Positions 28,491 to 56,400 of a DNA stretch of 64,000 bases are shown piece by piece. Each line of letters begins with the position of its first letter. Position 1 is the stretch's first letter. Source of the DNA: Acorus gramineus (lineage: Eukaryota > Streptophyta > Magnoliopsida > Acorales > Acoraceae). The stretch is taken from NCBI GenBank assembly GCA_030737835.1, contig CM060847.1, positions 11,484,704 to 11,548,703 of the forward strand, written 5' to 3'. The notes below the pieces were generated by a model. That model did not search any database. It saw only the letters and a program-made list of their open reading frames with translations, and was not told the DNA's origin. A program made the translations under genes and the position numbers.

Positions 28491-28496
28491 TTGTTA

Positions 28497-29772: not shown

Positions 29773-29988
29773 ATAAATCACAATTTCCTCCTCTTTTACT
29801 TCTTCTTCACGTTGTTATCAGATACAGCTCACTTTAATGACCTGAGTCCGGACTCTTGTAAGCCACAGACATGCGGAGGTCCCCAAGACATCACTTACCC
29901 CTTCTGGGTCGAACAGAATCAGCCCTCCTATTGTGGAGTCCCGGGATTCAAACCCTCTTGCACCGTCGACAAGGCCGTACTCGCCGTG
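29773..29988 (+). pseudogene. Broken LRK10L ectodomain 5' fragment, copy A
   Basis: This matches the first about 215 bases of the exon at 22172 (signal peptide, CKPQTCGG, ITYPFWVE, CGVPGFKPSC). The start codon position reads ATA instead of ATG at 29773. Similarity stops dead at 29988 ('gccgtg') where AT-rich sequence (tattatataaatat) begins. It keeps the upstream W-box/CACAAGCGCG-like block at 29693-29733. It is a truncated relic. Confidence 0.85.
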
Positions 29989-30434
29989 TATTATATAAAT
30001 ATAAAATAAAATATGTATATAAATATTTTATATAAATATAAAATATGTATTATGTGAAAAGGTTAAATACAATTACACTTCACATATGTTTTAAATTTCT
30101 TTAAAATTAATATATCTCATCTAATAAGATATATTCTGTTATAAAAAATTAAATATGTAATCCAATATTAAATTGCATGAGTTTATTTTTTCTATGTGAA
30201 ATTATTTTTAATGAAATACTTTTGTTTATGTGAATGTATGATGTTACATGAGATAGAATTATGCCTAAAAAAAACTGTGTGTAACATGGGTCAAATTATA
30301 TTATATGCATATTATATATGTAAGTTTCATCTGAATTTCCTGAACCATTAATATGGCAGTCCATCCATGACCGGTAACATTGACCCAAAGATCAATTCAA
30401 CTACTCCATTTCAAGTCTCAAAAATATGGGATTG
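29989..30434. other. AT-rich filler between broken and intact ectodomain exons
   Basis: Very AT-rich sequence with direct TATAAATAT words (29990-30050). No gene or clear element ends are seen. It is present in the same form in copy B at 45173-45618. Confidence 0.4.
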
Positions 30435-30665
30435 GGTTAGGTCCAACACTAGTTGGACAATTTGGCGGTTTCTGAACCATCAGATCTGATCATTTTAAGA
30501 TAACAAATTAATAATCATTTGATGTGATTACCATTTAAAGAAATAATTTAATGATAAAATATTTCAATCACAATAGCTATTAATATGTCTATCTTAATGT
30601 AATAAGATCTAACGGTTATGATCGTGTTGGACAATCAAATTGTCCAACTAATGTTGGATCTAACC
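30435..30665. repeat. Small inverted-repeat element (231 bp), copy A
   Basis: The left end GGTTAGGTCCAACACTAGTT and the reverse complement of the right end GGTTAGATCCAACATTAGTT form long (about 30-bp) imperfect inverted repeats. It ends 85 bases before the ATG of the intact ectodomain exon, so it probably forms part of that promoter. The B counterpart is 45619-45848. I saw no certain TSD. TIR length is compatible with a Mutator-like MITE. Confidence 0.65.
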
Positions 30666-30749
30666 AGTTCCCCACAAAAATAACCTAAAAAAAAAAAAAG
30701 CCTTCCCAATATTGTTTCATAATCAACACATCAAACAATCCCTCCTAAA

Positions 30750-31512
30750 ATGCATCCCCAGCTCTTCTTCTTCCTCTTCATCACCTTCTCCTTTCACCCC
30801 TGTTCGTCCCAGAAGAACAATCGGTACAAAAGCTGCGCTCCCCTTCCCTTCAGCTGCGGCAACTTCACAATAAACATAGCCTTCCCATTCACCATTGATG
30901 GAACCTCACCCGGTTGCGGATTACCTGATTTGCACCTCTCATGCCTGAGCGACAACTTAACACAGTTAATGATGAACAACGTGAGCTACCAAGTCAAGAA
31001 CATCGATTATGAGAAGCAAATCATGACCATTGCAAACATGGCTTACATCAACATAGACCAGTCCTGCTCCTACCTATACATAAACACCTCCCTCGATTTT
31101 TCGCTATTCGACTACACCGACAACGATCTCAACCTCACTTACTACGGCTGCTACTCGGCCCCGCCTAAAGTGTCGTCGTCCATTTTTCACGAGCTCTGCC
31201 ATGGAAGCGCGAATTCTCTGGACTACTATTACTTTTTGGCGGTTGAGGACGTAGATCTGTCTGAATTGTTGGGCTACTGCAATTCGAGTTACTTGGTGCC
31301 TATTCGCAAACCGTACTCTATGAATGATTTCAGTGTGGATGGTTTGATGAAGGCCTTGGAGGAGGGTTTCGATGTGATGTGGAAACCTGGGAAGGATTGG
31401 TGTGACAAATGTGTCGGATCGGGCGGTCGGTGTGGGTTTGATGAGAGCAAGCCTAACGATCCGCTCTGCCTTTGCCCGGATGGTACTTACTCAGATGCCT
31501 CATGTCATGCCG
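30750..31512 (+). CDS. Intact LRK10L ectodomain exon (exon 1), copy A
   Basis: The ATG at 30750 starts a 21-residue signal peptide (PQLFFFLFITFSFHPCSSQ). A GUB_WAK_bind-type domain follows (CAPLPFSCGNF, FPFTIDG, CGLPDLHLSC), then a WAK-associated end (LEEGFDVMWKPGKDWCDKC ... CLCPDG). About 254 residues are read before a consensus donor CCG|GTAAGT at 31512, phase 1, exactly as in the two complete genes. No own kinase exon is adjacent; the next intact exons in phase are 38459-38488 and 38644-39779. Joined to these it would give a 642-aa receptor kinase. It differs from the 22172 type and is nearer in layout to the 8363 gene. Unspliced, it would end a few codons into the intron (31547). Confidence 0.85.
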
Positions 31513-34172: not shown

Positions 34173-37045
34173 ATGAATCACAATCTCCAACTTCAGCTCT
34201 TCTTGTTAGGGTTCTTGTCGTTGCAGCTCCCTCTGATTACCTGGACCCGGACCCTTGCGGAGATCTCCACAATATCACCTACCCTTTCTGTGTCCAACGG
34301 AGTCAACCCCTCTATTGTGGATTCCCGTGTTTCAATCTCTCTTGCACCGAAGACAACAAGACCGCCGTCCTCACCGTGTCCGGCGACGACTATTACGTCC
34401 AGCAATTCTTCTACAACAACCGATCGGTCGTTCTCTCAAACACCCAATTATTTAATGGGAGCGACTTCGCTCCTCCCCGACACAACCTCTCGTTTTCCCC
34501 TCCGTTTCGGTTGAATAACCCCGACACCCATCTTCGCGGCGGTTGTGGTTTTAGCTTTTTGGGGCATCGTCGAAGCAGATTTGTCACGGTGTAGTAGCGG
34601 TTCCGGATGACGTTGAAATCGAAGGGTGTGATTATTCGTTTATTGCACCCATTTGGGCTCCGGGCGTCGATAAGTTAATCGATTATTATTTGCAGATTTT
34701 GAAAGCTGGGTTCTTTCTGGATTGGGATACGAGTATGTGCGTTGATGGGTGTGTACAGAGCGGCGGGCGATGTAGTTTTAACGTCTCGACGAACAACGCC
34801 GTCTGTCTTTGCAAGGATCGGGTCCATTTCCTGGAATGCTTTGGAGACTCATCAGGCAATCTAGTTCTGCCCATCTTTTACTTTCTTGATCTGCAGTTTT
34901 CTTACACCATCAATCAGACCTACTTTGGGTCAGATTTAGAATTCAAAAAAAAAAAAAAAAAAAACACTGAGACTGGTAACTGTAGATCCGGTTTGAAAAT
35001 AGGTTCGGGGTGTTTTTAGATCCGTGGGAAACGAGTTTCCGAACAAAAGCTACAAACATCTTTTAACAAACGGGTGGCCAGAAGATAGCTTTTCACAAAT
35101 CAGTAGACAGATTGTTTCTTGCAAAGTTTTAAACACGGCTTTATAAAAAAACTAAAACCCAAACATGTTTTCAAACGGAGCCTAAGGAATTTAATGGTCC
35201 AGTGGATGTTTGGTGATTATTGTGTCCGGTGAAGATTTGTTCCGTATTCAAACATTGTTATTGGGAACTTACGAATTAAGCAGATCGTATACTGAATACT
35301 GTGTGTCCATTTTAAAAAATGCTCTGTTACTTGGATCACTCTAGTCAGTCATCACACAATTTACCTCTTTTTATCATACTATCTATTTTCTGTTTACCTT
35401 TCCTTGGTTTCATATTTTTATGTGGTATCATTTTTTAATCTTCAATCTCTTTTGCAGCATGAGTGTGTACTTTTTCTCCTCCAAATGCCTTCTTGATCAA
35501 TATTGAATTCTACTAATGGATAGCGACATAAATTATTCTAGAATAGATAATTGTAGTTCTTATTTATCCCTTCTTTGAATGGAAATGTTTAGACTTGCCA
35601 ATGTTATTTCCAACTGATGTGTATTAGTAACTAATGTTAAATGGCTTTGGACCTTTGCAGGAACTTCACTTGCCAGGAAGAGTGTTATAGGTATTTCACT
35701 ATGCTTGTCTCTCTGTTCTCACTAATAATCTTTAATAAATTTGTTCTTACAATTTCATTAGAGCATCACCTTTTGTTTATCATTTGTTGAACTTAACAAA
35801 TCAAAGTGGTTTAAGAAGTTAAATGATTCCATGTTTGCTTATATCTCATAATTGTTCTCTTCACAATAAATTATAGGAATATCCACCAGTGCGGCTATCA
35901 TTATAACATTAATAATTGCATTTCTGGTCATATTCAAAAGAAAAGGTTACAATATTTTCTCCAAAGAGAGAAGAAAAGATGGTAGTGTTAATGTAGAAAA
36001 ATTTATGAAGAACTATCGTTCTATGCTACCAACAAAATTCACATACGTGGATGTAAAAAGGATGACGAATGGCTTCTGAGATAAATTAGGCAGATGAGGT
36101 TGTGGCAGTGTTTACAAAGGAAAACTACCGAGTGGTCAATTCATTGCAGCTAAAATCTTGGAGAAATTCAAGGACAATGGTCAGGATTTCATCGATGAAG
36201 TTGCAACAATCGGCCGGATCCATCACTTCAACATTATAAGACTTCTTGGCTTCTGTTGTGAAGGCTTAAGGCGAGCTCTAATATATGAATACATGCCCAA
36301 TGGATCACTTGGTGATCTGATTTCCAATTGTTCGAGATTGTTCGAGAAATTGTTCGAGAGGTTAGATGTAGACTAGGACAAGAGAAATTGTTCGAGATTG
36401 TGATAGGCAACAGAAATGGCATTCAATACATGCACAATGGGTGTGACACAAGGATCTTGCACTTGGATATCAAGCCCCAAAATGTCTTGTTAGATCATGA
36501 TTATCATCCAAATATATCTGATTTTGGGCTAGCAAAATTGTACTCGCGTTAAGGATAGTATGGTTTCATTGACAGGCACTCGAGATACAGTAGGTTATAT
36601 AGCTCTAGAAGTTTTTATGAGGAGTGTTGGTGGCGTTTCGCATAAATCAGATGTCTACAGCTATGGGATGCTGTTGTTGGACATGGTTGTGGGAAGGAAG
36701 AATGTTGAATTCGAAAATGATCGCTCAAGTATGTTGTACTTTCCGAATTGTATTTACATTCAACTCGATCGGTGGAGAGAGATGGAGCTTGATGGATCAT
36801 TCGTGGAAGAGGCCAAGTTGTGTATTGTGAGGAAGATGGTGTTGATTGGCTTGTGGTGCATACAGATAAACCCCTCTGATTGCCCTTCGATAAGTAGGGT
36901 GTTGGAGATGCTAGAGGGGAATCATGAAAGCATTGAGATTCCTCCAAAGCCTTTCTTTTCTTCATCTCCTAGACAGCGAGGGGAGCTACAAACTTCATCT
37001 GCAGATAACACAGATGCAGTACCTCTTACACATGAGAGCATGTGA
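34173..37045 (+). pseudogene. LRK10L gene, broken in ectodomain and kinase, copy A
   Basis: All three exons are recognisable: 34173-34855, 35661-35690 and 35877-37045. In exon 1 the signal-peptide frame and the Cys-domain frame (DPDPCGDLHNITYPF) differ by one base, and a second shift follows GGCGFSF near 34560. The exon ends at a GC donor. In exon 3, TGA replaces the Arg codon at 36078 and another TGA falls in the Gly loop at 36095. A threefold 'ttgttcgaga' repeat has been inserted at 36328-36360, and an extra T at about 36549 shifts the frame before the activation segment. Glu of APE is kept but Pro is Leu (IALEV). It is dead as a receptor kinase. Confidence 0.9.
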
Positions 37046-38458
37046 CGTAGCCAATATTTGTTATTGAGAAAAAAAATTGCATGTATCATAGTTGTGCTTT
37101 CCAAAGTACAGTACAAGAAATCTTGTAATGATTTAACAATTACTATCTAGTTTTCTATCGGAGTGATATATGTAATTCTTTTTTGTGCTTGATTGTGCCC
37201 CTACTTGAAAATGTAACATTCATGGGGGTTGCTTCAGAGAACACTGTGGATGAAGATGGAAACTATTCAATGACGTGTGACACAGATGATCGTCTACAAA
37301 ACTTGTGATTATATCTTATTTTATATTAGCCCCAAATTGTGTGCATCATGTAAAGATGTATTAGGGCAAACATACAAAAAACAAGAAAAACCAAAAGCAT
37401 GAGCATTCATTACAATATTTTCTATGGGCTTGTTTGGATAGAGACGTAAGCTATTATGGGATTTATACATATTCCAGAAATAAATAACTTTATCAATGGA
37501 ATAAGTGATTTTCTATTTAGTAGTATTTTTTGTTATTCGCATTAAGAAACATAGTAATAAAGGTTGAGTTGATTGGTTGATGAAGAATAAAATGTGCATA
37601 AGCTATAAAAAGTTGATTTGACATGTGGGCTCTATTGATGTATAAGAGGTGATGACATGTGATTTAACATGTGGGTCATTTTATACTAGTGGAGTAATAA
37701 CACAATTCCATGGGGGATCTGGAATATAAATACTAGCTTATTCTCACGTAATTCTGCATAGCTATATCCACTTATTCTCTCTACCCAAACACTTTTTTTA
37801 TATTTATTCTCCTCTATTCCCACCTATTTCTCCCCTGCAATCCTCCAGCATTTTTTAAAAGCGTTGTTTTTGGGGAGTTTCAAAAGCAGCCATTTTCTTG
37901 AATAAGATTTGTTCTTCTGAAGAATCAGTATTCAAACATTGATATTGGGAAACTATGTAGATCGTATACTGGATACTATCGTGTCCATTTTAGGTAATGC
38001 TCTGTTAAATCACTCTAGTCAGTCACATCAGTACACAATTCACATCTTTTTATCAGATTATCTATTTTTTCTGTTTCCCTTCATTTCATTTCTTTATATC
38101 ATATCATGTTAGAATCTTCAATCTTTTTTGCAACATGTGCATTTACTTTGTCTCCTCCAAATGCCTTTCTTGATCAATATTGAATCCTGTTATTGGATTT
38201 TTCAGGGTTTGATATTGGGGTAAAGTTCTAAGCATGAATCTTTCTATGCATGAGTCTTTTTATTAGACACTCTCAATTTCTGTGCCAAGCTATCTCTGTT
38301 GTATTAACCATAACAGAGATGGAAGATCTGGGCAGTTCTTACCAAAATATCACCTAGTCCTTATTTTTCCCTTCTTTGAATGGAAATGTTTAGATATTCC
38401 AATACCATTTCCAACTTGTGTATTTGTAGCTAATGTTAAATGGCTCTGGACCTCGCAG
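37046..38458 (+). other. Flank of the dead kinase, MITE and intron remnant
   Basis: 37430-37800 is an M1-family element. From 37850 the sequence is first-intron type ('gggagtttcaaaagc', 'caaacattgatattggg', 'tcaatattgaatcct') leading to exon 2 at 38459. No ectodomain exon precedes it, so the downstream kinase has lost its own exon 1. This intron remnant resembles 23045-23940 more than 35000-35650. Confidence 0.6.
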
Positions 38459-39779
38459 GAATTTTACATGACAGGAAGAGTATTATAGGTATTTCACTTT
38501 GCTTGTTCCTCTGTTCTTACAATTTCATTAGAGCATCACCTTTTGTTTATCATTTGTTGAAGTTAACAAATCAATGTGGTTTAAGAAAAAGGATTCCATA
38601 GATGCTTATATATTATAATTGTTCTCTTCACAATAACTTTCAGGTATCTCCACCGGTACGGTTATCATTATAACATTAGTAATTGCATTTCTGATCGTAT
38701 TCAAAAGAAGAGGTCACAATATTTTCTCCAAAGCAACAAAAAAAGATGGTAGTGATAATGTGGACAAATTTATAAAGGACTATCGTTCAATGCTCCCAAT
38801 AAAATTCTCATACATGGATGTAAAAAGAATGACGAATGGCTTCCGGGATAAATTAGGCCAGGGAGGCTATGGCAGTGTTTACAAAGGAAAACTACCGAAT
38901 GGTCAAATAATCGCAGCAAAGATCTTGGAGAAATCCAAGGACAATGGTCAGGATTTCATCAATGAAGTTGCAACAATCGGTCGGATGCATCACTTCAACA
39001 TTATAAGACTTCTTGGCTTCTGTTGTGAAGGCTTGAGGCGAGCTCTAATATATGAATACATGCCCAATGGATCACTCGGTGACCTTATTTCCAATGAAGA
39101 GGTCAGATGTAGTCTAGGACAAGAGAAATTGCTCGAGATTGCAATAGGCATCGCGAATGGCATTCAATATATGCACAATGGGTGTGACACACGGATCTTG
39201 CACCTGGATATCAAGCCCCAAAACATCTTGCTAGACTATGATTATCATCCAAAGATATCAGATTTTGGGCTAGCAAAGTTGTACTCACGTAAGGATAGTG
39301 TGGTGTCATTGACTGGTGCTCGAGGGACGGTAGGCTATATAGCTCCGGAAGTTTTAATGAGGAGTGTTGGTGGCGTTTCACATAAATCAGATGTCTACAG
39401 CTATGGAATGTTGTTATTGGACATGGTTGTTGGAAGGAAGAATGTTGAATTCGAAAATGATCATTCAAGTATGTTGCACTTTCCGAATTGGATTTTCATT
39501 CAACTCGATCGGTGGAGGGAGATGGAGCTTGATGGATCGATCATGGAAGAGGTGCACATTGCGAAGAAGATGGTGTTAGTTGGTTTGTGGTGCATACAGA
39601 TAAACCCATCTGATCGGCCTTCTATAAGTAAGGTGTTGGAGATGCTAGAGGGAAGTCATGAAAGCATTGAGAGTCCTCCAAAGCCCTTCTTTCCTTCATC
39701 TCCTAGACTGCAATGGGAGGTACAAACTTCTTCTGTTGATAACACAGACACAGTACCTCTTACACATGAGGGCATGTGA
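38459..39779 (+). CDS. Intact LRK10L linker and TM-kinase exons, copy A
   Basis: Exon 2 is 38459-38488 and exon 3 is 38644-39779; both keep phase 1 and AG acceptors. Exon 3 gives the span (ISTGTVIIITLVIAFLIVF), then a complete kinase with KLGQGGYGSVYKG, the AAK lysine, HLDIKPQN (non-RD), DFG, APE and the subdomain XI Arg, ending HEGM. No ectodomain exon of its own lies upstream. Candidate partners are the intact exon at 30750-31512 or the broken exon at 34173. Alternatively it is a kinase-only gene, but a start inside the span or at 38760 would remove membrane targeting. It runs tail to tail with the BRUTUS 3' fragment, 711 bases apart. Confidence 0.85.
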
Positions 39780-40431
39780 TGTAGCCAATATATGTTATTG
39801 AGAAAAATAAATTGCATGTAGTTGTGCTTTCCAAATTATAATTAATCTTGTAATGATTTAACAATTACTATCTTGTGTTCGAAGTGATACCTTTATGTAA
39901 TTTTTTTTTTTTTTTTTTTGTGCTTGATTGTGCCCCTACTTGAAAATGCAACATTCATGGGCGGTGCTTTAGAGAAGATTTTGGATGAAGATCGGGAGAC
40001 AAACTATTCCATGATGTGTGACACAGATGATCGTCTCCAAAACTTGTGATTATATCATATTCATTTTATATTAGCTGCAAATTGTGTGCATCATGTAAAG
40101 ATGTATTAGAGGAAACATGCAAAAACAAGAAAAACCAGAAGCATAAGCATTCATTAATTATTACAATAGTTAATAGAGGTTGAGGAAACCAATAATAGCA
40201 TTGTAGTAGCCTTTAGTGCCCTGGAAGAGAGCAACAAATATGCTGCCGGAAAGAGAAAAAAAGGCCCCGGCAAGCTCAACTATCGGTATTGTGAACTCTC
40301 ATTCGCGCAACCATGAATCGAAAATGAAAATTGAATCGAACCATGATCAAATTTACAAGCTCATCTTTTCCATGTATAATTGTTTGTGTGGAAAGGATAT
40401 TTACAAGCCCGGATAAGTCAGAAATGACAGG

Positions 40432-40462
40432 GAAAAAGAAAGAAAGAAAGAAAGAAAAAGAA
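40432..40462. repeat. (GAAA)n microsatellite in BRUTUS 3' UTR
   Basis: An A/G-rich GAAA-type tract just past the stop codon of the BRUTUS fragment. It is longer here than in copy B (53408-53431), so the two copies have already diverged by repeat slippage. Confidence 0.7.
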
Positions 40463-40490
40463 AATTAAATTCAACACAGATTCTCTTCTT

Positions 40491-42550
40491 CTATTCTGAC
40501 CTGGAACAGTCGGTCTGAGGTGTATGAGTCTTGATGACTCGCGTATTATAAGAGCCGCAAGAGCCGCATTTATGATATAACCAATGGAAGCGAGCTATTC
40601 CTTTCTTTTCACAGTCATTGCAGAGTATGTCCTGCAATGTTTGAATCCAAAATGTTAATGTTTCGGGAATGTGTGGATTTCACAAAATTCACAATGGTAG
40701 CATTTGTGCAGTAACAATACTTGGCAACGATCACGGTACTCTTCAGGTAGCACCTCTGTGGCTAGCAGAGCGTCAAGCATGCCAAAGTACACCTGGAAAA
40801 AAATTGTCATCTCGGATTTCAATAAACAATGGCAATATCTGTAGATAGTTCATGTAGCGTGCATACATGGCAAACTGAATAGGAATGATGGTAGAAAACA
40901 ATATGCAATAAAAAAAATTAATGTGGAATATATTAAGAGAGTAACGTTATGGAACCAAGACTTCAACCTGTGGTGTAAAAGTAGAATATACTTACCGCCA
41001 TATCTCCCAAGGATTTGCTGCATATTGGGCAGGTATAGTGGCTACAGGTATATGCCTGATCAAAATGAAGAGAAAAAAGATGAATGAAATCATTGTTAAA
41101 TATAAATGAGTCACTCAAACAATGGACAGGAGAAATTTATACCTGAAAGCAAGCAGAATGCATGAAATGGCCACATGGAAGGGCTCTTACTGTTGCACTT
41201 GATGTGAACAGAAAATCACAACATATTGGACAATTTGTCTCAAGCCCCTTTTCCCGGCACTTGTGCTCTACTAATTTCATTCCCAGGCAACAATTGCAAG
41301 TCATGCAATGAAAAAAATCAATTCCAAGTCCCTTCCCAAGACGACACAAATTGCAAAATGGGCAATGATAGACATTCCTAATGAAGAATATCAAAAAAAA
41401 AAAAAAATCAGTCTTGTAGAATGAAATCGAACATGAATCTTACATATCATTGTAAAAGAATAACCACGACAAGGTTCTATATGTAACAACTTCCATACGC
41501 TGTGAATAAGAATTATTGAGCAGCATTTTTTTTGGTAGAAAAATTGTTGAGCAGCATTGACTTAGGATTCATTAAATCAAATTCCGAGGCATGCAGAACA
41601 CCACCAAAATGTCATCTGATCATTATCACAATATAAACCCAAGTAATATAAAAATAGGAATTTTTCAGTTTTTAAAAGCAAACTTGCACTCATGATTATT
41701 ATTTTTTTAAAGCACAATGTAGCCAAAACTTAATGTTATGGTCAACACACTGAAACACATAATCATAATTTTTCCAGATTATATAATAGGGAGAGGTGCA
41801 TAAAGCATAGGACTGAAATGCTTTTGGATGAAAAAAAACTGGGTAGCAGATGGTGGGGAAGGGGATAAATGAAAGGATCCAGCTGGATAGACTTGGTTGG
41901 AGAGAGAGGGAGGGAGGGGCAGAGGATTTCACCGAGCAAGGTTCTCCGGAGAAGAGGAATAGCCCAACCGGAGTTGGGAGAAGAACACAATTGAAGTTGG
42001 GGTTCTTCTCGTTGGGGATATGCGTTTTGGAGGCAACAGACCACTGGACGTGCCATTTGGGCTGCAAAGCGCCCACTAAGGCCCAAATCTGTCTATGCAT
42101 AAGCAGGCAGTAGGTCTGCTCAAATGCTTAAGCAAGTGCATGACCCCCACTTGAAACGTGCTTACACGGCTTGAATTTCTAACTCTAAGAAATTCAAAGA
42201 AGAGTTTCCACTTTTCAGAGGCAACCACATATATTTTTGGAAGAGTATGAAAACAGCTAAGGAAAAGGATTTAATAGAAACAGTTGACAATGAATTATGC
42301 AATTCAATATGAGTAGGATACATACCATATAATACATACCGGACTTGGACACAATTGATATGATGTTCATTCCAGACCCTCAAACACTGCACTCATTACA
42401 TCCTGAAATGTACTACAACTAACATGCCCAATTACTTTACTGTGAAACAAGAACTTAATAAATCCTGAAAATCTCTACATTTTACATGCCCACTTTACTG
42501 CAAAACAAGAACTATCTGCGAATGGCTTTTAACATTTACAAGCAATATAG
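40491..42550 (-). pseudogene. Orphan 3' end of BRUTUS (exons 11-14), copy A
   Basis: Exons 41143-41377, 40996-41055, 40721-40792 and 40491-40631 correspond one for one in length, phase and splice sites to exons 11-14 of the full gene. They encode the second half of the CTCHY finger, the RING (NCPICC ... [15 protein letters not shown] ... CPIC) and the terminal zinc ribbon ([13 protein letters not shown]). Intron 10 is cut at 42550 where the duplication ends, so exons 1-10, all hemerythrin domains and the promoter are missing. Coding sequence is undamaged, so the copy is recent. If transcribed at all it could give a RING-only product; I treat it as a partial gene. Confidence 0.92.
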
Positions 42551-42790
42551 CTTTTTTGCCCTTAATGAGATGTCAGTATAAAAGGGCATCTCATATTATT
42601 CATTAGGCTCTAGGGTTTTTATATTCGGTGTGACCATTGTAAAAACTTCTCATTGATAGTGGATTGATCTCTGGTGTGTTCCGTGGACGTAGGCAAGATT
42701 TACCGAACCACGTAAATTTTTGTGTATTTGCTTCAATTTGTTTGTTTATTTTTTTTTATTGATTGCATCCCAAGATCCGAAATCGTAACA
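42551..42790 (+). mobile_element. Truncated copia-type LTR end at the duplication junction
   Basis: It is present only between the two copies. It carries a TATA-like TATAAAAGG at 42577, then the phrases CCGTGGACGTAGGCAAG (42681) and CCGAACCACGTAAATTTTTG (42704), which I know as typical of plant copia LTR R-U5 regions. It ends GTAACA right at the first base of copy B. The 5' part of the LTR is missing. It reads as filler DNA captured when the duplication formed, or as an LTR whose 5' part was lost in that event. Confidence 0.7.
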
Positions 42791-43246
42791 TCTATATCTA
42801 TATTTATACATATACTATCTATAAAAACATCGATTCTGAAAAAACATTTGATTGACACTTTTACTCTTATAAAGTTTTAAAAACCCATTTTACTCTTTAA
42901 CCAAAGCAAGGTTTTTTTCGACGTTTTTTTATTTCAATAGCATCACGGGTCTCTTCCTCTCCCTCCCGTCTCTTCCACTTTAAATTCTCTAAAAACCCTG
43001 TGTAGAGTTGAATTTTAAAACCTGCCAAACCCCCAACGAACAGATCCTTCGGGTATAAGAGCCACCTCCGCCTCCAACCAGCTAGTCTCTGCCCGGTCAC
43101 CTCTCCTCCTTTCTCGCATTCTCAGCTCTCTAAAATCCACAGTCACAACGAAGTGACAAAAATCACTCCTCGACAAAAATCCCCAATTATATTATTTATC
43201 ATCAGTTATTCATCCTTGGTGTTCCTTTAGTTGCTCAATTATTTGG

Positions 43247-43710
43247 GTTTATTGCTCCGGAAGTTTTTATGAGGAGCATTGGTGGCGTTTCACATAAATC
43301 AGATGTCTACATCTATGGGATGTTGTTGCTGGACATGGTTGTGCGAAAGGAGAATGTTGAATTTGAAAATGATCGTTCAAGTATTTTACACTTTCCAAAT
43401 TGGATTTACATTCAACTCGATCGGTGGAGGGAGATGGAGCTTGATGGGTCAGTCATTGAAGAGGTTGAGTTGCACGTTGCGAGGAAGATGGTGCTAGTTG
43501 GCTTGTGGTGCGTACAGATAAACCCATTTGATGGACCTTCGATAAGTAGAGTGTTAGAGATGCTAGAGGGAAGTCATGAAAACATTGAGATCCCCCCCAA
43601 AGCCTTTCTTTCCTTCATCCCATAGACAGCAATTAGAGGTTCAAACTTCTTCTGCAGATAACATAGATGCAGTACTTCTTACATATGAGATCATGTGACA
43701 TATGAAAGTG
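43247..43710 (+). pseudogene. LRK10L kinase 3'-end fragment, copy B
   Basis: The same relic as 28009-28490. Here the C run has 7 bases instead of 16, a difference of nine, so both copies end in the same shifted tail (stop at 43623-43625). The HKSDVYIYG motif is slightly better kept than in A. It lacks the catalytic part of the kinase and cannot be active. Confidence 0.85.
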
Positions 43711-44955
43711 AATAATTATTAGAGCATCTCTAACCACACTTCATATCTATAATTTTGGAGCTCAAATCACACTCCATATCCACCTCCATATTTGGAGGCC
43801 GCCTCCAAATCATCCTTTTCATTTTTTTACTTTATACATTAATTAATTCAACCTAATGTATATTTAGATCCGCTAATTCATTTTTAATAAAAGTATTATA
43901 GTAAGAAAGATCCTATTAAGACTTTCAAAATGAGACTAATATTAAATTATTTTAGAATTAATTTTAAATAAATCCTCGTATATTTGATTATTCAATAATT
44001 ATTTTATTTATTTCATTAAAAAATTAATAATTTAAACATAATTCCAAAATCATTTAATATTAGACTCATTTTAAAGGTCTTAATAAGATCTTTTCAATGG
44101 TTTAATTTTTATATAAATGGATTAATAATAATAATAATATTTATTAATGATTTTGTATTTTTTTTTATCTTTTTTCTATAATGATATGTATTGAACTAAT
44201 ATAATGTGTGACTGACAAAATACAACCAAAGAGAAAATCATTTTTTTTTATCTATACTGAATTAGTTATATATCCAGGAATAATTTATGCCGCTAAATCA
44301 AATGGGGCCACATGTACTTCACTTAGGCCCCCCGCACAATAGTGAGGAAGATTGTAATAGACCCGTGTTTGTTTGTTATTCAATCACCCGCCCCGTTTCG
44401 ATAGACAATCAAATTATTATGAGGTTTATCATTATTCTTGTATAGATAAAGAATAAGTGATTTTTTGTTTGGTTGTATTTTTAATTATTCTAGTTGAGAA
44501 ACGTAATAATAAAAAATTTAGTGTTTAGGTAACCATTGATAAATTGTGGATCAAATGTGATTAAGATGTAGAAAAAGATTTATAAAAAATAAAAAAAATG
44601 ATTTGACATGTGAGTCTTTTATTTTATAATAAGAGGTGATAACAATTGATTTGACAGTAGATTCTACATATTCAAATAAGTTAAATGACCTAAAATAACT
44701 TAACTAGCCAATATAACAAAAATTATATTACTATTTTATACCTGTAAATTCTGGATACATATTCTCATATTCCACCTTGTCCCCGTTTGTTACACCCTAA
44801 ATTCTCCAACCACACATGTGAGCTTAGAACAATTGATGATGGGTTGGGTCGCCGTAGGTCATTTTCATCATTCTCCTTGACTCTTCTTTTTCCACGAGCT
44901 CGTTTAAATTCCATCGTGCTGTCCTTCTCGCTCTTGTTTCTTCTTTATCGCCCAA

Positions 44956-45172
44956 ATAAATCACAATTTCCTCCTCTTTTACTTCTTCTTCATGTTGTTA
45001 TCAGATGCAGCTCTCTTTAATGACCTGAGTCCGGACTCTTGCAAGCCACAGACATGCGGAGGTCCCCAAGACATCACTTACCCCTTCTGGGGTCGAACAG
45101 AATCAGCCCTCCTATTGTGGAGTCCCGGGATTCAAACCCTCTTGCACCGTCGACAAGGCCGTACTCGCCGTG
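44956..45172 (+). pseudogene. Broken LRK10L ectodomain 5' fragment, copy B
   Basis: The counterpart of 29773-29988. The start position is again ATA. One extra G in 'ttctggggtcg' (near 45090) adds a frameshift not found in A. It breaks off at the same base before AT-rich sequence. Confidence 0.85.
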
Positions 45173-45618
45173 TATTATATAAATATAAAATAAAATATGT
45201 ATATAAATATTTTATATAAATATAAAATATGTATTATATGAAAAGGTTAAATACAATTACACTTCACATATGTTTTAAATTTCTTTAAAATTAATATATC
45301 TCATCTAATAAGATATATTCTGTTATAAAAAATTAAATATGTAATCCAATATTAAATTGCATGAGTTTATTTTTTCTATGTGAAATTATTTTTAATGAAA
45401 TACTTTTGTTTATGTGAATGTATGATGTTATATGAGATGGAATTATGCCTAAAAAAAACTGTGTGTAACATGGGTCAAATTATATTATATGCATATTATA
45501 TATGTAAGTTTCATCTGAATTTCCTGAACCATTAATATGGCAGTCCATCCATGACCGGTAACATTGACCCAAAGATCAATTCAACTACTCCATTTCAAGT
45601 CTCAAAAAAATGGGACTG

Positions 45619-45848
45619 GGATAGGTCCAACACTAGTTGCACAATTTGGCGGTTTCTGAACCATCAGATCTGATCATTTTAAGATAACAAATTAATAATC
45701 ATTTGATGTAATTACCATTTAAAAAAAGAATTTAATGATAAAATATCTCAATCACAATAGTTATTAATATGTCTATCTTAATGTGATAAAATCTAACGGT
45801 TATGATCGCGTTGGACAATCAAATTGTCCAACTGATGTTGGATCTAAC
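45619..45848. repeat. Small inverted-repeat element, copy B
   Basis: The copy of 30435-30665, with a few substitutions in both inverted ends. It precedes the ectodomain ATG at 45933 by about 85 bases. Confidence 0.6.
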
Positions 45849-45932
45849 ATGTTCCCCACAAAAATAACCTAAAAAAAAAAAAGCCTTCCCAATATTGTTT
45901 CATAATCAACACATCAAACTATCCCTCCTAAA

Positions 45933-46695
45933 ATGCATCCCCAGCTCTTCTTCTTCCTCTTCGTCACCTTCTCCTTTCACCCCTGTTCGTCCCAGAAGAA
46001 CGATCGGTACAAAAGCTGCGCTCCCCTTCCCTTCAGCTGCGGCAACTTCACAATAAACATAACCTTCCCATTCTCCATTGATGGAACCTCACCCGGTTGC
46101 GGATTACGTGATTTGCACCTCTCATGCCTGAGCGACAACTTAACACAGTTAATGATGAACAACGTGAGCTACCAAGTCAAGAACATCGATTATGAGAAGC
46201 AAAACATGACCATTGCAAACATGGCTTTCATCAACATAGACCAGTCCTGCTCCTACCTATACATAAACACCTCCCTCGATTTTTCGCTATTCGACTACAC
46301 CGACAACGATCACAACCTCACTTACTACGGCTGCTACTCGGCCCCGCCTAATGTGTCGTCGTCCATTTTTTACGAGCTCTGCCATGGAAGCGCGAATTAT
46401 GTGGACTACTATTACTTTTTGGCGGTTGAGGACGTAGATCTGTCTGAATTGTTGGGCTACTGCAATTCGAGTTACTTGGTGCCTATTCGCAAACCGTACT
46501 CTATGAATGATTTCAGTGTGGATGGTTTGATGAAGGCCTTGGAGGAGGGTTTCGATGTGATGTGGAAACCTGGGAAGGATTGGTGCGACAAATGCGTACG
46601 ATCGGGCGGTCGGTGTGGGTTTGATGAGAGCAAGCCTAACGATCCGCTCTGCCTTTGCCCGGATGGTACTTACTCAGATGCCTCATGTCATACCG
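45933..46695 (+). CDS. Intact LRK10L ectodomain exon (exon 1), copy B
   Basis: Same length (763 nt), phase and donor (CCG|GTAAGT) as 30750-31512, with about ten amino-acid changes (for example CVRSGGRCGF for CVGSGGRCGF, CGLRDLHLSC for CGLPDLHLSC). All cysteines are kept. Signal peptide residues 1-21, GUB_WAK_bind-type domain, then WAK-associated end. In phase with exons 51407-51439 and 51623-52758, a joined product would be 643 aa across a 4.7-kb intron that contains a broken exon and a hAT element. Amino-acid changes with no stops hint that the exon is still under constraint, but I cannot test this. Confidence 0.85.
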
Positions 46696-48572
46696 GTAAG
46701 TCCTTTTTTTTCCAAGCCTTTGCTTTTAATGTTGTTGTTTTTCGTTAATTAGATGTGTTGAGGGGATGAATCATTTAGATTCTGTTTGGGTAGAGGAAAT
46801 GAGGTGGAACAGCAGTGGATAGGTGGAATAAAGAAAAAAGAACTGCTTGGATAGATGGATAGAATAAGGTAGTATTGATATATCAAAATAAGAGGAATGA
46901 TGGGAATCGTTTCTTTCGTCTTCTTAAAAAATTCATTTAGAGAGAGAGAGGGTGGCGGCAGTGGGACGAGGATGGCGGTCGACGGTCAGCAAAGGAGGTT
47001 TGCAGGTGGCCCTGGCACCCACCGATGCCCTCCTCCTCCCCATTCTCTTTCTTTATTTCTCTCTCTCTCTCCTTCACCACCCACCGGCGTCACCCGGTGC
47101 CTTCCTCGAGCGCTCCTTCATTTCTTTTGGACGGTCAACCGACACCAAAATTTATTTTCAAGTCAGACCAAACATCCTCAAAATAATGTGGTATGCCCAA
47201 CTCATTTTTTAATACTGTATAAATCTATACTTTATTCATATATTATTCATATTTTGTACATAAGGATGCTTTTATATCAAAAGGAAAGTGAAAAAAAAAT
47301 TCTTTTGACCATTCAAAAATCTAGTGTTTGTACTAAATATTGGAAAAAAAAAAATTTCAATCACGTTGCCTCTCCTATTTTGTTTTATTAAAAAAGTGAG
47401 AAATTTTTTTTTCATTCTCCATAATTGAAGATTTAAGAGAAAATGATAGAAAAGTTTTCCACCACATGCACAAACATTATGAAAGTTGGTCAACTAATAA
47501 TATTTTACTTTTCATATATCACTTTCTCTTTTATTCAAATTACCTCACTTTCTTTCTTTTCCTTTCAAATTTGTGCACAAATATACCATAAGTAATCCAT
47601 AATCAATCAGACAACAAAGACAACAAAAACTCGTCATAACATTTTTCAACTAAAATAACTAAAAATATAAACAAAAAATAACATACATATTTCATTGATA
47701 TAGTTATCTATATATCTGAATAACCTAATTCCTTTACTTAATTAAAACAGGGGTAGAAATTTTGGTGGGGTTGTTTGAATTACCCAAGTTATTTGTTCGT
47801 CTCCCCGCTGTCAGTTCAACACGGTTAACATCTGAAAAGTTCAACATGGTTGTAGATTAGCCATGAATGAGTTTATATATTATTACATATGTGAACAGAT
47901 AATTGGTAGAGAATAGAAAACAAAATAGGTTGAAAAATGAGACTTAGATCGATGCGTGTGTTAGAGAAGGAGAACAGGCTACCCTGACTAGGCATCCTTT
48001 AATTTCTCTCTCTGCTCTACCTTCGCCTCTGGTGTCCTCCGGCCGCCATCTTTATTTCTTCCTTTTCTCTATAAATATTATTTTCCTTTCTCAAGTTGAC
48101 GTCCGAGTCCCACCATCTCGACTAAAAGAACTTATTCTTTATACATTTTGCTCATGTTTGGATAGTGGAATAGGAAGATATAGGGGTGGATAGGATGAAA
48201 AATAGATAAGATGTTTATGTAGGAGTAATAACATAATATAATTAGTGAGTACGGTGACATTGAGTTTTTAGTATAAGGGGTTTCACATGTAATCATCTGT
48301 AATTATCTTCTATAAATTAGAGATCTACATGTCAAATTTATTTTCAAATTTTATTAATTCCTATCCACAATTTCAATCAAATAATTACAATAATTAAAAA
48401 TATAAATAAAAAAAAATGTCTTATTCCACTTATTATCATCTTTTCCGTGCAATATCTAAACTAAAAAGGACGTTTAGCTCCCATTACCCAATTTTGACTT
48501 TACTATAAACCCACATGTCATCCCCTCTGGACCATATTTAAACAAAAAGGTAATTTTCAAAGACCTTTTAAC
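46696..48572 (+). other. Putative long intron / intergenic, copy B
   Basis: Matches copy A 31513-33506. Differences include a shorter stretch near 47200. No gene is seen; frames at 46897-47391 are low complexity. Confidence 0.45.
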
Positions 48573-49347
48573 CAGGCCCGTCAACGGGTCGGGTCGGGGT
48601 GGACCCGGACCCGACCTGTGACAGGACCCGGCGGGTCCGGAGAAATGTGGACCCGGACCTGTCGGACCTAAGTCGGGTCCGGGTCCGACCCGACCCGGAT
48701 GGTTGGGTAAAAAAAAAAAAAAAAAGAGAAGAGCTCATGTATTTGTTTGTCTTATCATTCTATTTAAAATTTTTTGTAATAAAACATTATTGTTAATGAG
48801 ACTATGTTTGAATATAATTTTATACAATTCAAAAGAAGTAAATGAATTATTAAACAACATCCAAAACAATAATCACTAACATAAAAAAAATATTAACCTA
48901 AATAATAAACATAACTAACCTAAACAACATTCAAAACAATATTAACCTAAACAACATTCAAAACAATAAACACTAACATATTAACCTAAATAATAAACAT
49001 AAATCATGCAACAAACTAATTAATTATACAAATTCAAATGCTAATAAGTTAATTGTCCAAAACAAACCGATTTATAGGCTTGTTATGATTATGATTTATG
49101 AACTTGGAGATACAAAAATAAGTTAAGTAAGAAATAAAATTATGTATCAACTAATACTAATGGTATTATAATATATGAAAAAAAACAGTCGGGTCCAACG
49201 GGTCGGGGCGTGGTGGACCCGGACCCGACCCGTTTGTTTGTTCGGGTTCGCCAGGTCGGGTCCAACTCGGGTCGGGTTCAAATCGGGTCGGATATATTAC
49301 ACGTGTAATTGGGTTCGGATCTCGGACCCGACCCGTTGACAGGCCTA
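48573..49347. mobile_element. hAT-type element (family H2), 775 bp, 8-bp TSD
   Basis: Termini CAGGCCCGTCAACGGGTCGG and, reverse-complemented, TAGGCCTGTCAACGGGTCGG. The exact duplication CTTTTAAC flanks it at 48565-48572 and 49348-49355. Copy A shows the empty site once (near 33506-33513), proving a precise insertion after the segmental duplication. The interior is the reverse of the 15113-15963 element. No transposase, so non-autonomous. Confidence 0.95.
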
Positions 49348-49923
49348 CTTTTAACTAATGCAAAGAAGTAGCCAGCTTACCTTATCATTTTCAAAAAGAG
49401 AGAGAGAGAGAGATATTAGGGTCCACTCCCATTATCCATATATTTTATGACCTTGTTTAGTTTGGAACGAAAATAAGATTTATTCTTAGATATATATTTA
49501 TTCAAACATAGATAAGGATAAAGTGATTTTGTGTTTCATTGTGTTCTGAATTATTCTCGTTGGTAAACGTAAGAATGAATATTTTATTGTTTGGATAAAT
49601 GTGAATAAAGTATTAATAAGGATTTATAAAAGGTGAAAAAATAATAATAGTTGATTTAACGGGTGATTTATAAGAGGTGATGACAGTTGATTTGACAGTG
49701 GACATACATATTCTTTAGATGGAATAACCTAGGATAACTTAAATTCTAGGGGTTGATTATGTTTTCAAACATCTTTTATCCCTTATTCCCCTTTGCCCTT
49801 TGTCTGAGGTTATCCGGGGACTTATTCCCTTTCTAAACGCAGGGTGCATGACCCCGACGTGCTAAATACGAGGCCTTTTTTAGATAGACCCCTCCTCCTC
49901 CTCTGCCTCCGCCGCCTGTTCAG

Positions 49924-50606
49924 ATGAATCACAATCTCCAACTTCAGCTCTTCTTGTTAGGGTTCTTGTCGTTGCAGCTCCCTCTGATTACCTGGACCCG
50001 GACCCTTGCGGAGATCTCCACAATATCACCTACCCTTTCTGTGTCCAACGGAGTCAACCCCTCTATTGTGGATTCCCGTGTTTCAATCTCTCTTGCACCG
50101 AAGACAACAAGACCGCCGTCCTCACCGTGTCCGGCGACGACTATTACGTCCAGCAATTCTTCTACAACAACCGATCGGTCGTTCTCTCAAACACCCAATT
50201 ATTTAATGGGAGCGACTTCGCTCCTCCCCGACACAACCTCTCGTTTTCCCCTCCGTTTCGGTTGAATAACCCCGACACCCATCTTCGCGGCGGTTGTGGT
50301 TTTAGCTTTTTGGGGCATCGTCGAAGCAGATTTGTCACGGTGTAATAGCGGTTCCGGATGACGTGGAAATCGAAGGGTGTGATTATTCGTTTATTGCACC
50401 CATTTGGGCTCCGGGCGTCGATAAGTTAATCGATTATTATTTGCAGATTTTGAAAGCTGGGTTCTTTCTGGATTGGGATACGAGTATGTGCGTTGATGGG
50501 TGTGTACAGAGCGGCGGGCGATGTAGTTTTAACGTCTCGACGAACAACGCCGTCTGTCTTTGCAAGGATCGGGTCCATTTCCTGGAATGCTTTGGAGACT
50601 CATCAG
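49924..50606 (+). pseudogene. Frameshifted LRK10L ectodomain exon, copy B
   Basis: Nearly identical to 34173-34855, with the same two frameshifts (in the signal peptide and after GGCGFSF) and the same GC splice donor (CAG|GCAATC), so the damage predates the duplication. Unlike in A, an intact linker exon and kinase exon follow. Unless the shifts are assembly errors, this exon cannot supply a working ectodomain. Confidence 0.88.
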
Positions 50607-51406
50607 GCAATCTAGTTCTGCCCATCTTTTACTTTCTTGATCTGCAGTTTTCTTACACCATAATCAGACCTACTTTGGGTGAGATTTAGAATTCAAAAAC
50701 AAAAAAAAAACACTGAGACTGGTAACTGTAGATCCGGTTTGAAAATAGGTTCGGGGTGTTTTTAGATCCGTGGGAAACAAGTTTCCGAACAAAAGCTACA
50801 AACATCTTTTTACAAACGGGTGGCCAGAAGATAGCTTTTCACAAATCAGTAGACAGATTGTTTCTTGCAAAGTTTTAAACACAGCTTTATAAAAAAGCTA
50901 AAACCCCAAACATGTTTTCAAACGGAGCCTAAGGAATTTAATGGTACAGTGGATGTTTGGTGATTATTGTGTCCGGTGAAGATTTGTTCTGTATTCAAAC
51001 ATTGTTATTGGGAACTTACGAATTAAGCAGATCGTATACTGAATACTGTGTGTCCATTTTAAAAAATGCTCTGTTACTTGGATCACTCTAGTCAGTCATC
51101 ACACAATTTACCTCTTTTTATCATACTATCTATTTTCTGTTTACCTTGCCTTGGTTTCATATTTTGATGTGGTATCATTTTTTAATCTTCAATCTCTTTT
51201 GCAGCATGAGTGTGTACTTTTTCTCCTCCAAATGCCTTCTTCATCAATATTGAATTCTACTAATGGATAGCGACATAAATTATTCTAGAATAGATAATTG
51301 TAGTCCTTATTTATCCCTTCTTTGAATGGAAATATTTAGACATGCCAATACTATTTACAACTTATGTGTATTAGTAGCTAATATTAAATGGCTTTGGACC
51401 TTGCAG

Positions 51407-52758
51407 GAACTAAGTCACTTGTCAAGAAGAGTGTTATAGGTATTTCACCTTGCTTGTCCCTCTGTTCTCACTGATGATTTTTTAAATATTTGATCTTACA
51501 ATTTCATTAGAGCATCACCTTTTGTTTATCATTTGTTGAAGTTAACAAATCAATGTGGTTTAAGAAAAAGGATTCCATATATGCTTATATCTTATAATTG
51601 TTCTCTTCACAATAACTTTCAGGTATCTCCACCGGTACGGCTATCATTATAACATTAGTAATTGCATTTCTGATCGTATTCAAAAGAAGAGGTTACAATA
51701 TTTTCTCCAAAGAAACAAGAAAAGATGATAGTGATAATGTGGACAAATTTATGAAGGACTATCGTTCAATGCTCCCAATAAAATTCTCATACATGGATGT
51801 AAAAAGAATGACGAATGGCTTCCAGGATAAATTAGGCCAGGGAGGCTATGGCAGTGTTTACAAAGGAAAACTACTGAATGGTCAAATAATCGCAGCAAAG
51901 ATCTTGGAGAAATCCAAGGACAATGGTCAGGATTTCATCAATGAAGTTGCAACAATCGGTCGGATGCATCACTTCAACATTATAAGACTTCTTGGCTTCT
52001 GTTGTGAAGGCTTGAGGCGAGCTCTAATATATGAATACATGCCCAATGGATCACTCGGTGACCTTATTTCCAATGAAGAGGTCAGATGTAGTCTAGGACA
52101 AGAGAAATTGCTCGAGATTGCAATAGGCATCGCGAATGGCATTCAATATATGCACAATGGGTGTGACACACGGATCTTGCACCTGGATATCAAGCCCCAA
52201 AACATCTTGCTAGACTATGATTATCATCCAAAGATATCAGATTTTGGGCTAGCAAAGTTGTACTCACGTAAGGATAGTGTGGTGTCATTGACTGGTGCTC
52301 GAGGGACGGTAGGCTATATAGCTCCGGAAGTTTTTATGAGGAGTGTTGGTGGCGTTTCACATAAATCAGATGTCTACAGCTATGGGATGTTGTTATTGGA
52401 CATGGTTGTCGGAAGGAAGAATGTTGAATTCGAAAATGATCATTCAAGTATGTTGCACTTTCCGAATTGGATTTTCATTCAACTCGATCGGTGGAGGGAG
52501 ATGGAGCTTGATGGATCGATCATGGAAGAGGTGCACATTGCGAAGAAGATGGTGTTAGTTGGTTTGTGGTGCATACAGATAAACCCCTCTGATCGGCCTT
52601 CTATAAGTAAGGTGTTGGAGATGCTAGAGGGAAGTCATGAAAGCATTGAGAGTCCTCCAAAGCCCTTCTTTCCTTCATCTCCTAGACTGCAATGGGAGGT
52701 ACAAACTTCTTCTGTTGATAACACAGACACAGTACCTCTTACACATGAGGGCATGTGA
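51407..52758 (+). CDS. Intact LRK10L linker and TM-kinase exons, copy B
   Basis: Exon 2 is 51407-51439 (33 nt, one codon longer than in other loci, still in frame) and exon 3 is 51623-52758. The kinase is almost identical to copy A: KLGQGGYGSVYKG, the AAK lysine, HLDIKPQN (non-RD), DFG, APE. Exon 2 and upstream intron derive from the 35661-type locus, whereas exon 3 derives from the 38644-type locus; the switch is in intron 2 (51494-51541). Exon 1 could be 45933-46695 (intact) or 49924-50606 (broken). It lies tail to tail with BRUTUS, 701 bases apart. Confidence 0.88.
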
Positions 52759-53458
52759 TGTAGCCAATATATGTTATTGAGAAAAATAAATTGCATGTAG
52801 TTGTGCTTTCCAAATTATAATTAATCTTGTAATGATTTAACAATTACTATCTTGTGTTCGAAGTGATACCTTTATGTAATTTTTTTTTTTTTTTTGTGCT
52901 TGATTGTGCCCCTACTTGAAAATGCAACATTCATGGGCGGTGCTTTAGAGAAGATTTTGGATGAAGATCGGGAGACAAACTATTCCATGATGTGTGACAC
53001 AGATGATCGTCTCCAAAACTTGTGATTATATCATATTCATTTTATATTAGCTGCAAATTGTGTGCATCATGTAAAGATGTATTAGAGGAAACATGCAAAA
53101 ACAAGAAAAACCAGAAGCATAAGCATTCATTAATTATTACAATAGTTAATAGAGGTTGAGGAAACCAATAATAGCATTGTAGTAGCCTTTAGTGCCCTGG
53201 AAGAGAGCAACAAATATGCTGCCGGAAAGAAAAAAAAAGGCCCCGGCAAGCTCAACCATCGGTATTGTGAACTCTCATTCGCGCAACTATGAATCGAAAA
53301 TGAAAATTGAATCGAACCATGATCAAATTTACAAGCTCATCTTTTCCATGTATAGTTGTTTGTGTGGAAAGGATATTTACAAGCCCGGATAAGTCAGAAA
53401 TGACAGGGAAAAAGAAAGAAAGAAAAAGAAAATTAAATTCAACACAGATTCTCTTCTT

Positions 53459-56400
53459 CTATTCTGACCTGGAACAGTCGGTCTGAGGTGTATGAGTCTT
53501 GATGACTCGCGTATTATAAGAGCCGCAAGAGCCGCATTTATGATATAACCAATGGAAGCGAGCTATTCCTTTCTTTTCACAGTCATTGCAGAGTATGTCC
53601 TGCAATGTTTGAATCCAAAATGTTAATGTTTCGGGAACGTGTGGATTTCACAAAATTCACAATGGTAGCATTTGTGCAGTAACAATACTTGGCAACGATC
53701 ACGGTACTCTTCAGGTAGCACCTCTGTGGCTAGCAGAGCGTCAAGCATGCCAAAGTACACCTGGAAAAGAATTGTCATCTCGGATTTCAATAAACAATGG
53801 AAATATCTGTAGATAGTTCATGTAGCGCGCATACATGGCAAACCGAATAGGAACAATGGTAGAAAACAATATGCAATAAAAAAAATTAATGTGGAATATA
53901 TTAAGAGAGTAACGTTATGGAACCAAGACTTCAACCTGTGGTGTAAAAGTAGAATATACTTACCGCCATATCTCCCAAGGATTTGCTGCATATTGGGCAG
54001 GTATAGTGGCTACAGGTATATGCCTAATCAAAATGAAAAGAAAAAAGATGAATGAAATCATTGTTAAATATAAATGAGTCACTCAAACAATGGACAGGAG
54101 AAATTTATACCTGAAAGCAAGCAGAATGCATGAAATGGCCACATGGAAGGGCTCTTACTGTTGCACTTGATGTGAACAGAAAATCACAACATATTGGACA
54201 ATTTGTCTCAAGCCCCTTTTCCCGGCACTTGTGCTCTACTAATTTCATTCCCAGGCAACAATTGCAAGTCATGCAATGAAAAAAATCAATACCAAGTCCC
54301 TTCCCAAGACGACACAAATTGCAAAATGGGCAATGATAGACATTCCTAATGAAGAATATCAAAAAAAAAAAAATCAGTCTTGTAGAATGAAATCGAACAT
54401 GAATCTTACATATCATTGTAAAAGAATAACCACGACAAGGTTCTATATGTAACAACTTCCATACGCTGTGAATAAGAATTATTGAGCAGCATTTTTTTTG
54501 GTAGAAAAATTGTTGAGCAGCATTGACTTAGGATTCATTAAATCAAATTCCGAGGCATGCAGAACACCACCAAAATGTCATCTGATCATTATCACAATAT
54601 AAACCCAAGTAATATAAAAATAGGAATTTTTCAGTTTTTAAAAGCAAACTTGCACTCATGATTATTATTTTTTAAAAGCACAATGTGGCCAAAACTTAAT
54701 GTTATGGTCAACACACTGAAACACATAATCATAATTTTTCCAGATTATATAATAGGGAGAGGTGCATAAAGCATAGGACTGAAATGCTTTTGGATGAAAA
54801 AAAACTGGGTAGCAGATGGTGGGGAAGGGGATAAATGAAAGGATCCAGCTGGATAGACTTGGTTGGAGAGAGAGGGAGGGAGGGGCAGAGGATTTCACCG
54901 AGCAAGGTTCTCCGGAGAAGAGGAATAGCCCAACCGGAGTTGGGAGAAGAACACAATTGAAGTTGGGGTTCTTCTCGTTGGGGATATGCGTTTTGGAGGC
55001 AACAGACCACTGGACGTGCCATTTGGGCTGCAAAGCGCCCACTAAGGCCCAAATCTGTCTATGCATAAGCAGGCAGTAGGTCTGCTCAAATGCTTAAGCA
55101 AGTGCATGACCCCCACTTGAAACGTGCTTACACGGCTTGAATTTCTAACTCTAAGAAATTCAAAGAAGAGTTTCCACTTTTCAGAGGCAACCACATATAT
55201 TTTTGGAAGAGTATGAAAACAGCTAAGGAAAAGGATTTAATAGAAACAACTGACAATGAATTATGCAATTCAATATGAGTAGGATACATACCATATAATA
55301 CATACCGGACTTGGACACAATTGATATGATGTTCATTCCAGACCCTCAAACACTGCACTCATTACATCCTGAAATGTACTACAACTAACATGCCCAATTA
55401 CTTTACTGTGAAACAAGAACTTAATAAATCCTGAAAATCTCTACATTTTACATGCCCACTTTACTGCAAAACAAGAACTATCTGCGAATGGCTTTTAACA
55501 TTTACAAGCAATATAGATTATCATTATTTTTCTGAGTCTTGTTTCAGCGTAACAATCTAATGAGTTTAAAAGGTTTTACATAATATTTAACGGTATGACC
55601 ATCATAAAAATTCTTTCATTTGAAATGGACATACTCATCTCTATATTCATTTATTCAGCATGAAGTCCATAAAAAGTTGAGTAATTATAATTTGCTTTTG
55701 ATAAAATAAAAAAAAAATCTCCTCAAAACCTGCCCTTCATCAAAACAAGCTCATTTCGAAGTAAGAGTGAATAGTTTAGATGTAGCCACAGTTCATGAGA
55801 AACCATACCTCTCATCATCGAAAAATTTGCAAATATTGCAATAGTATTTTGCCATTGAAAGCCTATTGCAGGATGGGGTCTGGCAAACTGGTCCTACGGC
55901 CTGAATCTTTAGGCAATGCATACACATCATTTCTGCAGTCGCTTTCCTAGAGAAAAAAAACGCATATAATTTTGTAAAAATTGAACTTTCGACGGCATAG
56001 TTACATATGTCAAATAATTTAAAATAAGAAAATCACCTATCCATTGAATGATCACTGACTTTATCATGGCAAAATCTGCAAGTAAACAATTTCTTACAAC
56101 ATGCAGCGAGGAGTTTGCAATTTCTTTTGTAATGCTCACAACCAAACACTTGCTTCTCAGGATCTCGAAATGATGGATAACGACCCTGCACATCCTCATC
56201 ATTATCTGCCTCCTCTTTTCTTGCTTGAGGTAACTTTTGCTGAGCAGCTATCCAGCGACTGTGTGAAACACCTAGTAATTAGTTTGTGGACAGCTTATGT
56301 TTAAAAAAATAAAAAAAAGGAGAGCGAGAGAGGGGGGGGATTACAAATTATTTCCTTAAGGCAAGAACATTTTTAACACACAATCACATGCCTATTCATA

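Follow-up and report, generated by a model that had tools for sequence, protein, structure and literature searches.

The OAK cluster of Arabidopsis thaliana, in the parts of its published description drawn on here, is a tandem RLK array in which deletions have left gene remnants and duplication has taken place (PMC3136440). Within this cluster, an identical 2.7-kb tract that starts 13 bp before the start codon and reaches 60 bp into the kinase sequence was interpreted by the authors as gene conversion (PMC3136440). For LRK10L genes in Arabidopsis, a second study places just under 50% of orthogroups in the dispensable genome and attributes >40% to tandem or proximal duplication, so that copy turnover of the kind described below would be expected (PMC12382012).

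The window, that is, the whole stretch of 64,000 nucleotides analyzed here (C1:11484704-11548703), contains no N and is a decaying tandem cluster of plant LRK10L/WAK-like receptor-kinase genes; genome searches covered the 398.6-Mb assembly of 137 contigs. The family was called on domain content and exon layout, Pfam PF13947, PF14380, and PF00069 all scoring above cut-off in paralog C; the same domains exceed the cut-off in copy B too, but in separate pieces. LRK10L is the name that we take to apply to this family. Besides the duplicated copies A and B, the cluster comprises:

About 1100-1760, degraded ectodomain
12081-13487, ORF of kinase F
18133-18600, 28012-28473, and 43250-43698, kinase fragments
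22118-25254, paralog C, intact, with ORFs at 22118-22990 and 24094-25254

Paralog C shares the exon order of A and B (ectodomain, linker, kinase) and its kinase is 90% identical to that of B, but it retains an open ectodomain ORF of 290 codons (stop to stop), a kinase ORF of 386 codons, and a GT donor. More cluster members were found on contigs C6 and C43 among the best 40 of 46 candidate matches scored. A partial copy of the A/B unit lies about 0.5 Mb away at C1:12040160-12041235 (95% identity to 30676-31750). Nearby lies an ectodomain-bearing piece used as a comparison (L031, C1:12043200-12048200, ectodomain at C1:12043627). Its ectodomain, in a long open frame, has 74% identity to that of B, and the 5 kb retrieved gave no match to a kinase; this copy near C1:12.04 Mb was considered as a template and rejected, only the ectodomain of six query pieces having matched there.

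The repeated unit, about 15 kb long (27569-42550), recurs in tandem at 42790-55516. The two copies, A and B, diverge by about 1.8% (214/11763 aligned sites), patchily along the duplication, and both repeat ends pass into sequence for which the rest of the window offers no long match. The same is true of the 239 bp that join the copies (42551-42789), which may represent a copia-type LTR end. Upstream in B, a transposon-like insertion of about 0.8 kb (48573-49347), absent from A, has ggacccggacccgac-type stretches near both ends. Copy A holds two units, designated A1 and A2 in order, with the following features:

34173-34855, + strand, ectodomain exon of A (GUB_WAK_bind + WAK_assoc type), pseudogenised, from frames and alignment with C and L031
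35661-35690, + strand, A1 linker exon, 30 nt
35880-37045, + strand, A1 dead kinase exon with in-frame stops, frameshifts, and 26 inserted columns
37432-37836, + strand, MITE-like high-copy repeat of about 400 bp at the seam between the A1 3' flank and the A2 intron-1 remnant
37900-38458, + strand, A2 intron-1 remnant with no ectodomain exon ahead of it
38459-38488, + strand, A2 linker exon, 30 nt
38643-39779, + strand, A2 kinase exon, open reading frame

A first-pass annotation of this DNA had described a dead kinase in A lying between the ectodomain exon and a live kinase, and this is what is found: A1 carries stops and frameshifts, and the A2 kinase ORF, like that of B, is open over 380 codons. 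The A1 kinase is 87% identical to that of B, and the A1 and A2 kinases are about 11% apart in substitutions. In the kinase tree, A1, C, and (A2,B) form an open trichotomy, so the tree does not polarize the direction of the event; end branches are 0.088 for A1, 0.0086 for A2, and 0.0026 for B. The A2 and B kinases differ by nine nonsynonymous and three synonymous changes (dN/dS 0.81 vs 0.23 for C-B, a non-significant contrast, p 0.13). Part of the A2 intron-1 remnant matches a paralog intron at 4258-4481 with 83.6% identity. The repeat at the seam, of which 2679 first-look candidate copies were found in the genome (40 of them scored), may be read as a MITE from its terminal repeats, not from a database match; its position suggests that the second unit lost its front part separately.

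Copy B has a single kinase exon and is composed as follows:

49924-50606, + strand, ectodomain exon of B with the same two frameshifts as A, from frames and alignment
50607-51344, + strand, intron 1, A1-like, from mismatch counts and trees
51345-51493, + strand, tract close to neither A1 nor A2 (end of intron 1, linker exon, start of intron 2)
51407-51439, + strand, linker exon, 33 nt, with an extra codon AAG at 51412-51414
51494-51540, + strand, run of 47 bp that A1, A2, and B have in common, uninformative among them
51567-52758, + strand, A2-like segment (end of intron 2 and the open kinase exon, 51623-52758)

To the left of the tract, B follows A1, with 15/993 mismatches over 50350-51344 (1.5%); in two bins spanning 50990-51300, A1-B differences number 2/161 and 2/151 against 20/147 and 38/151 for A2-B. 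The left tree (50985-51344, four rows) groups A1+B with support 100/99 and rejects A2+B (AU p 0.005). To the right, B follows A2, with 33/4026 mismatches (0.8%; 38512-42550 against 51491-55516), and the right tree (51567-51900, 11 rows) groups A2+B with support 100/99 and rejects A1+B (p 0.001). Across the junction the A-to-B offset falls from 15751 to 12979; B thus lacks about 2.77 kb, the part carrying the dead kinase, a size for the removed segment that agrees with the original estimate. Counts and trees for the two flanks therefore support B as a genuine recombination mosaic, in which an open kinase exon now follows an ectodomain and linker that belong to a different unit, as had been proposed.

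The junction itself is less simple than first described. B had been said to follow A1 up to 51494, yet over 51345-51493 the two differ at 18/146 sites plus 2 indels (12%), a count unchanged in 5/5 alignment settings and far from the left flank by Fisher's test (p 6e-9, sites treated as independent). A2 is no closer, with 14/115 over 51346-51492. In bins covering 51301-51492 the counts are 20/189 for A1-B, 18/160 for A2-B, and 20/160 for A1-A2, so that here B is about as far from A1 and A2 as those two are from each other. The tract is the most divergent 190-site window among the 11763 aligned A-B sites (21 mismatches; the next best outside it has 14). Against an overdispersed negative-binomial background the tail probability of this hump is 0.0014, or about 0.08 after multiplication by 59 windows; the place was set by the junction under test, though the hump had been noticed before testing. 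When a copying model is given an "other" state besides the two parents, its lnL rises by 15.5, with parameters hand-set rather than fitted.

The tree of 51345-51566 (11 rows) is a star, with end branches of 0.061 for A1, 0.049 for A2, 0.036 for B, and 0.081 for C. A1+B is preferred (69/71) and so is not rejected; the alternatives A2+B (p 0.155), A1+A2 (p 0.154), and A1+A2+C (p 0.356) also stand. On these alignments the tract is far more divergent from A1 than is the rest of the A/B pair, and the tree does not place it outside A1. A two-parent crossover leaves every segment at background divergence from one parent, which does not hold for 51345-51493. A conversion tract is expected to have a nearest relative differing from those of both flanks; here the tract is far from both flank parents, its tree is star-like, and a genome search for its donor (11 matches scored) yielded none closer than A1 (90% over 51295-51545). 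The misfit is likely explained by a tract from a third source or by gene conversion in patches.

Diagnostic sites between 51301 and 52720 were scored by taking C and nine paralogs of greater distance as outgroups, indel columns being counted singly. Sites shared by A1 and B comprise derived states at 51313 and 51394, the latter within the tract, ambiguous ones at 51341 and 51591, and ancestral ones at 51433, 52386, and 52587. Sites shared by A2 and B comprise an ambiguous one at 51305 and then none until 51567, where a 3-base deletion, followed by a substitution at 51570, provides the first shared-derived changes; derived A2+B columns number 11 in 51567-51900 and 15 in 51901-52720, with none inside the tract. 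The match to A2 had been dated from 51541, but that position, like 51554, is a change private to A1. The left switch can be set at about 51345, and the right one falls between 51493 and 51567. A ctcactgatgat-type stretch, previously taken as a mark of A1, is present in altered form in C and missing from A2 through a private deletion, and is therefore ancestral and not diagnostic. No site in intron 2 links the left part of B specifically to A1, and that link consists of the ectodomain exon and intron 1.

The phasing of informative sites that had been suggested as a check recovers A1+B on the left and A2+B from 51567, but between them B alone shows outgroup states. Against A1, A2, and C, it has the outgroup-majority state at 51383 (A in 8/9) and, further right, at 51728 (8/9), and it shares the linker AAG at 51412-51414, counted as one event, with 6/9 distant paralogs, the codon being absent from A1, A2, and C. 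Other B-only sites are ambiguous (51334, 51357) or derived in B (51425, 51824, 51875). As controls, A1-private columns match the outgroup majority in 14/109 cases to the right of 51567 and A2-private columns in 2/23 tract columns, the former showing that such matches also come by chance or parallel change. As for the crossover that had been located in about 47 bp of shared sequence, the run at 51494-51540 is real and occurs exactly three times in the window (35745, 38515, and 51494), but a single clean crossover is not borne out, the tract beside it fitting neither parent. The kinase exon contains a further stretch of 47 identical columns (51967-52013), so a run of this length is nothing special for these repeats.

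The ectodomain exons of A and B share their lesions. Relative to C and L031, both have lost a net 7 bp from the signal-peptide part (after 34217 in A; frameshift after 49968 in B) and a net 1 bp before WAK_assoc (near 34557-34562 and near 50306-50312, respectively), and in both the exon ends in a GC donor (34856-34857 and 50607-50608) where C has GT. GC donors can splice, so the donor change alone need not be fatal. A functional gene would have one open frame; in B the start codon, GUB_WAK_bind, and WAK_assoc occupy three different frames. The description of B as "healed" is therefore wrong for the gene, and B is best classed, from its reading frames, as a pseudogene with an open kinase exon, rearranged rather than repaired. 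Lesions common to both copies are most simply older than the A/B split, although later conversion between A and B could also have spread them. The ectodomains differ at 2 positions in 202 codons; over the surrounding region (A 34094-34893, B 49845-50644) 3/800 sites differ, against 157/6239 in the aligned 6.2 kb upstream, low divergence that hints at recent conversion between the copies. Values of dN/dS for the ectodomain pieces are 0.74 (A-C), 0.80 (A-L031), 0.71 (B-C), 0.92 (C-L031), and 0.28 (A-B, from 2 changes only); since open-frame copies evolve as fast as broken ones, these ratios cannot tell whether the ectodomain decayed together with the dead kinase.

The reading that we consider slightly better than even is that a two-kinase unit was duplicated and B then recombined, incorporating a tract of a third lineage and leaving a pseudogene. 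The pre-duplication unit would have looked as A does today, its ectodomain pseudogenised and its first kinase dead, followed by a second unit that is truncated at the 5' end but has an open kinase; this unit of about 15 kb would then have been duplicated in tandem. Copy B would owe its later form to ectopic homologous recombination inside the cluster, by which an A1-type 5' part was joined to an A2-type 3' part and about 2.77 kb was removed. The junction would not be one clean crossover: some 150-220 bp, beginning at about 51345 and ending between 51493 and 51567, probably derive from a third paralogous lineage and are best read as a gene-conversion tract or a template switch at this point. 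If the template were a paralog lacking the dead kinase, that kinase would be deleted in the same step; a tentative version of this, doubtful as it stands, is a single template-switch repair off a now-lost paralog, bringing in the third-lineage linker tract and taking out the dead kinase in one step from three sources. We infer loss in B as the direction, conversion as the mechanism, and a third donor.

Direction is where the first-pass annotation, in holding that A keeps the ancestral state, was plausible but incomplete: the A1 and A2 kinases (about 11%) split well before A and B (about 2%), which fits a two-kinase unit before duplication with loss in B and was counted for this model, and A therefore likely retains the earlier state, but a gain in A has also to be weighed. 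If the one-kinase B were ancestral, A would have acquired the A1 linker, the dead kinase, and the intron-1 remnant and linker of A2, about 2.9 kb in all, through ectopic conversion or unequal exchange within the cluster. A does differ from B by about 10% or more over one unbroken stretch (about 35590-38512) that is B-like on both sides, and the B linker retains outgroup states. Yet in the donor a dead kinase and a truncated second unit would already have to be joined, and a genome search for a donor of the A1 segment (46 matches) found none closer than B (86%) and A2 (84%); nor did searches of this assembly reveal another unit with two kinases or any closer donor. Direct repeats more commonly undergo deletion, and we judge a gain in A quite unlikely.

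A single unequal crossover or intrachromosomal deletion between the intron-2 copies, placed in the 47 bp and followed by later tract differences (by mutation or a separate A1/B conversion), would account for a deletion equal to the repeat spacing and for a run common to all copies, and it accords with the weak preference for A1+B in the tract and the derived site 51394 inside it. We nevertheless hold it unlikely, given a tract 12% divergent next to sequence at 1.5%, the AAG codon and the states at 51383 and 51728 that set B against A1, A2, and C, and the one more event that it requires. Very unlikely is the notion that A and B are pre-existing one- and two-kinase haplotypes brought into tandem by unequal exchange or by assembly error: a patchy divergence of about 1.8% could be allelic, but a plain false join does not explain repeat ends and a 239-bp join unmatched in the window, and the absence of N speaks against an assembly error. 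If the single template-switch repair considered above, which we hold doubtful, is what took place, the before (A) and after (B) states of one-step, three-source exon shuffling stand side by side.

No published account of this junction was recognized in the literature searched, which does not establish its absence from print. The study of LRK10L genes in Arabidopsis deals with presence/absence and duplication type rather than with junctions within genes, and its main text contains neither "unequal" nor "gene conversion" (PMC12382012). The locus is a well-resolved example of the way in which ectodomain and kinase modules are exchanged, and dead exons lost, in tandem clusters of receptor kinases; an almost identical sister copy, A, preserves the probably earlier state. 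It also illustrates that a two-parent reading of a junction can mislead if ancestral sequence retained in common and a deletion private to one parent are counted as diagnostic. As far as the published description of OAK goes, that cluster differs in having a malectin-like domain in its ectodomain, which places it in another RLK group, and in having a kinase active in hybrids, whereas the B chimera keeps a frameshifted ectodomain (PMC3136440). Like A and B, it is a tandem RLK cluster with deletion, duplication, and a conversion-type tract, and the A/B event is, by comparison, tandem-cluster turnover of a known type (PMC3136440).
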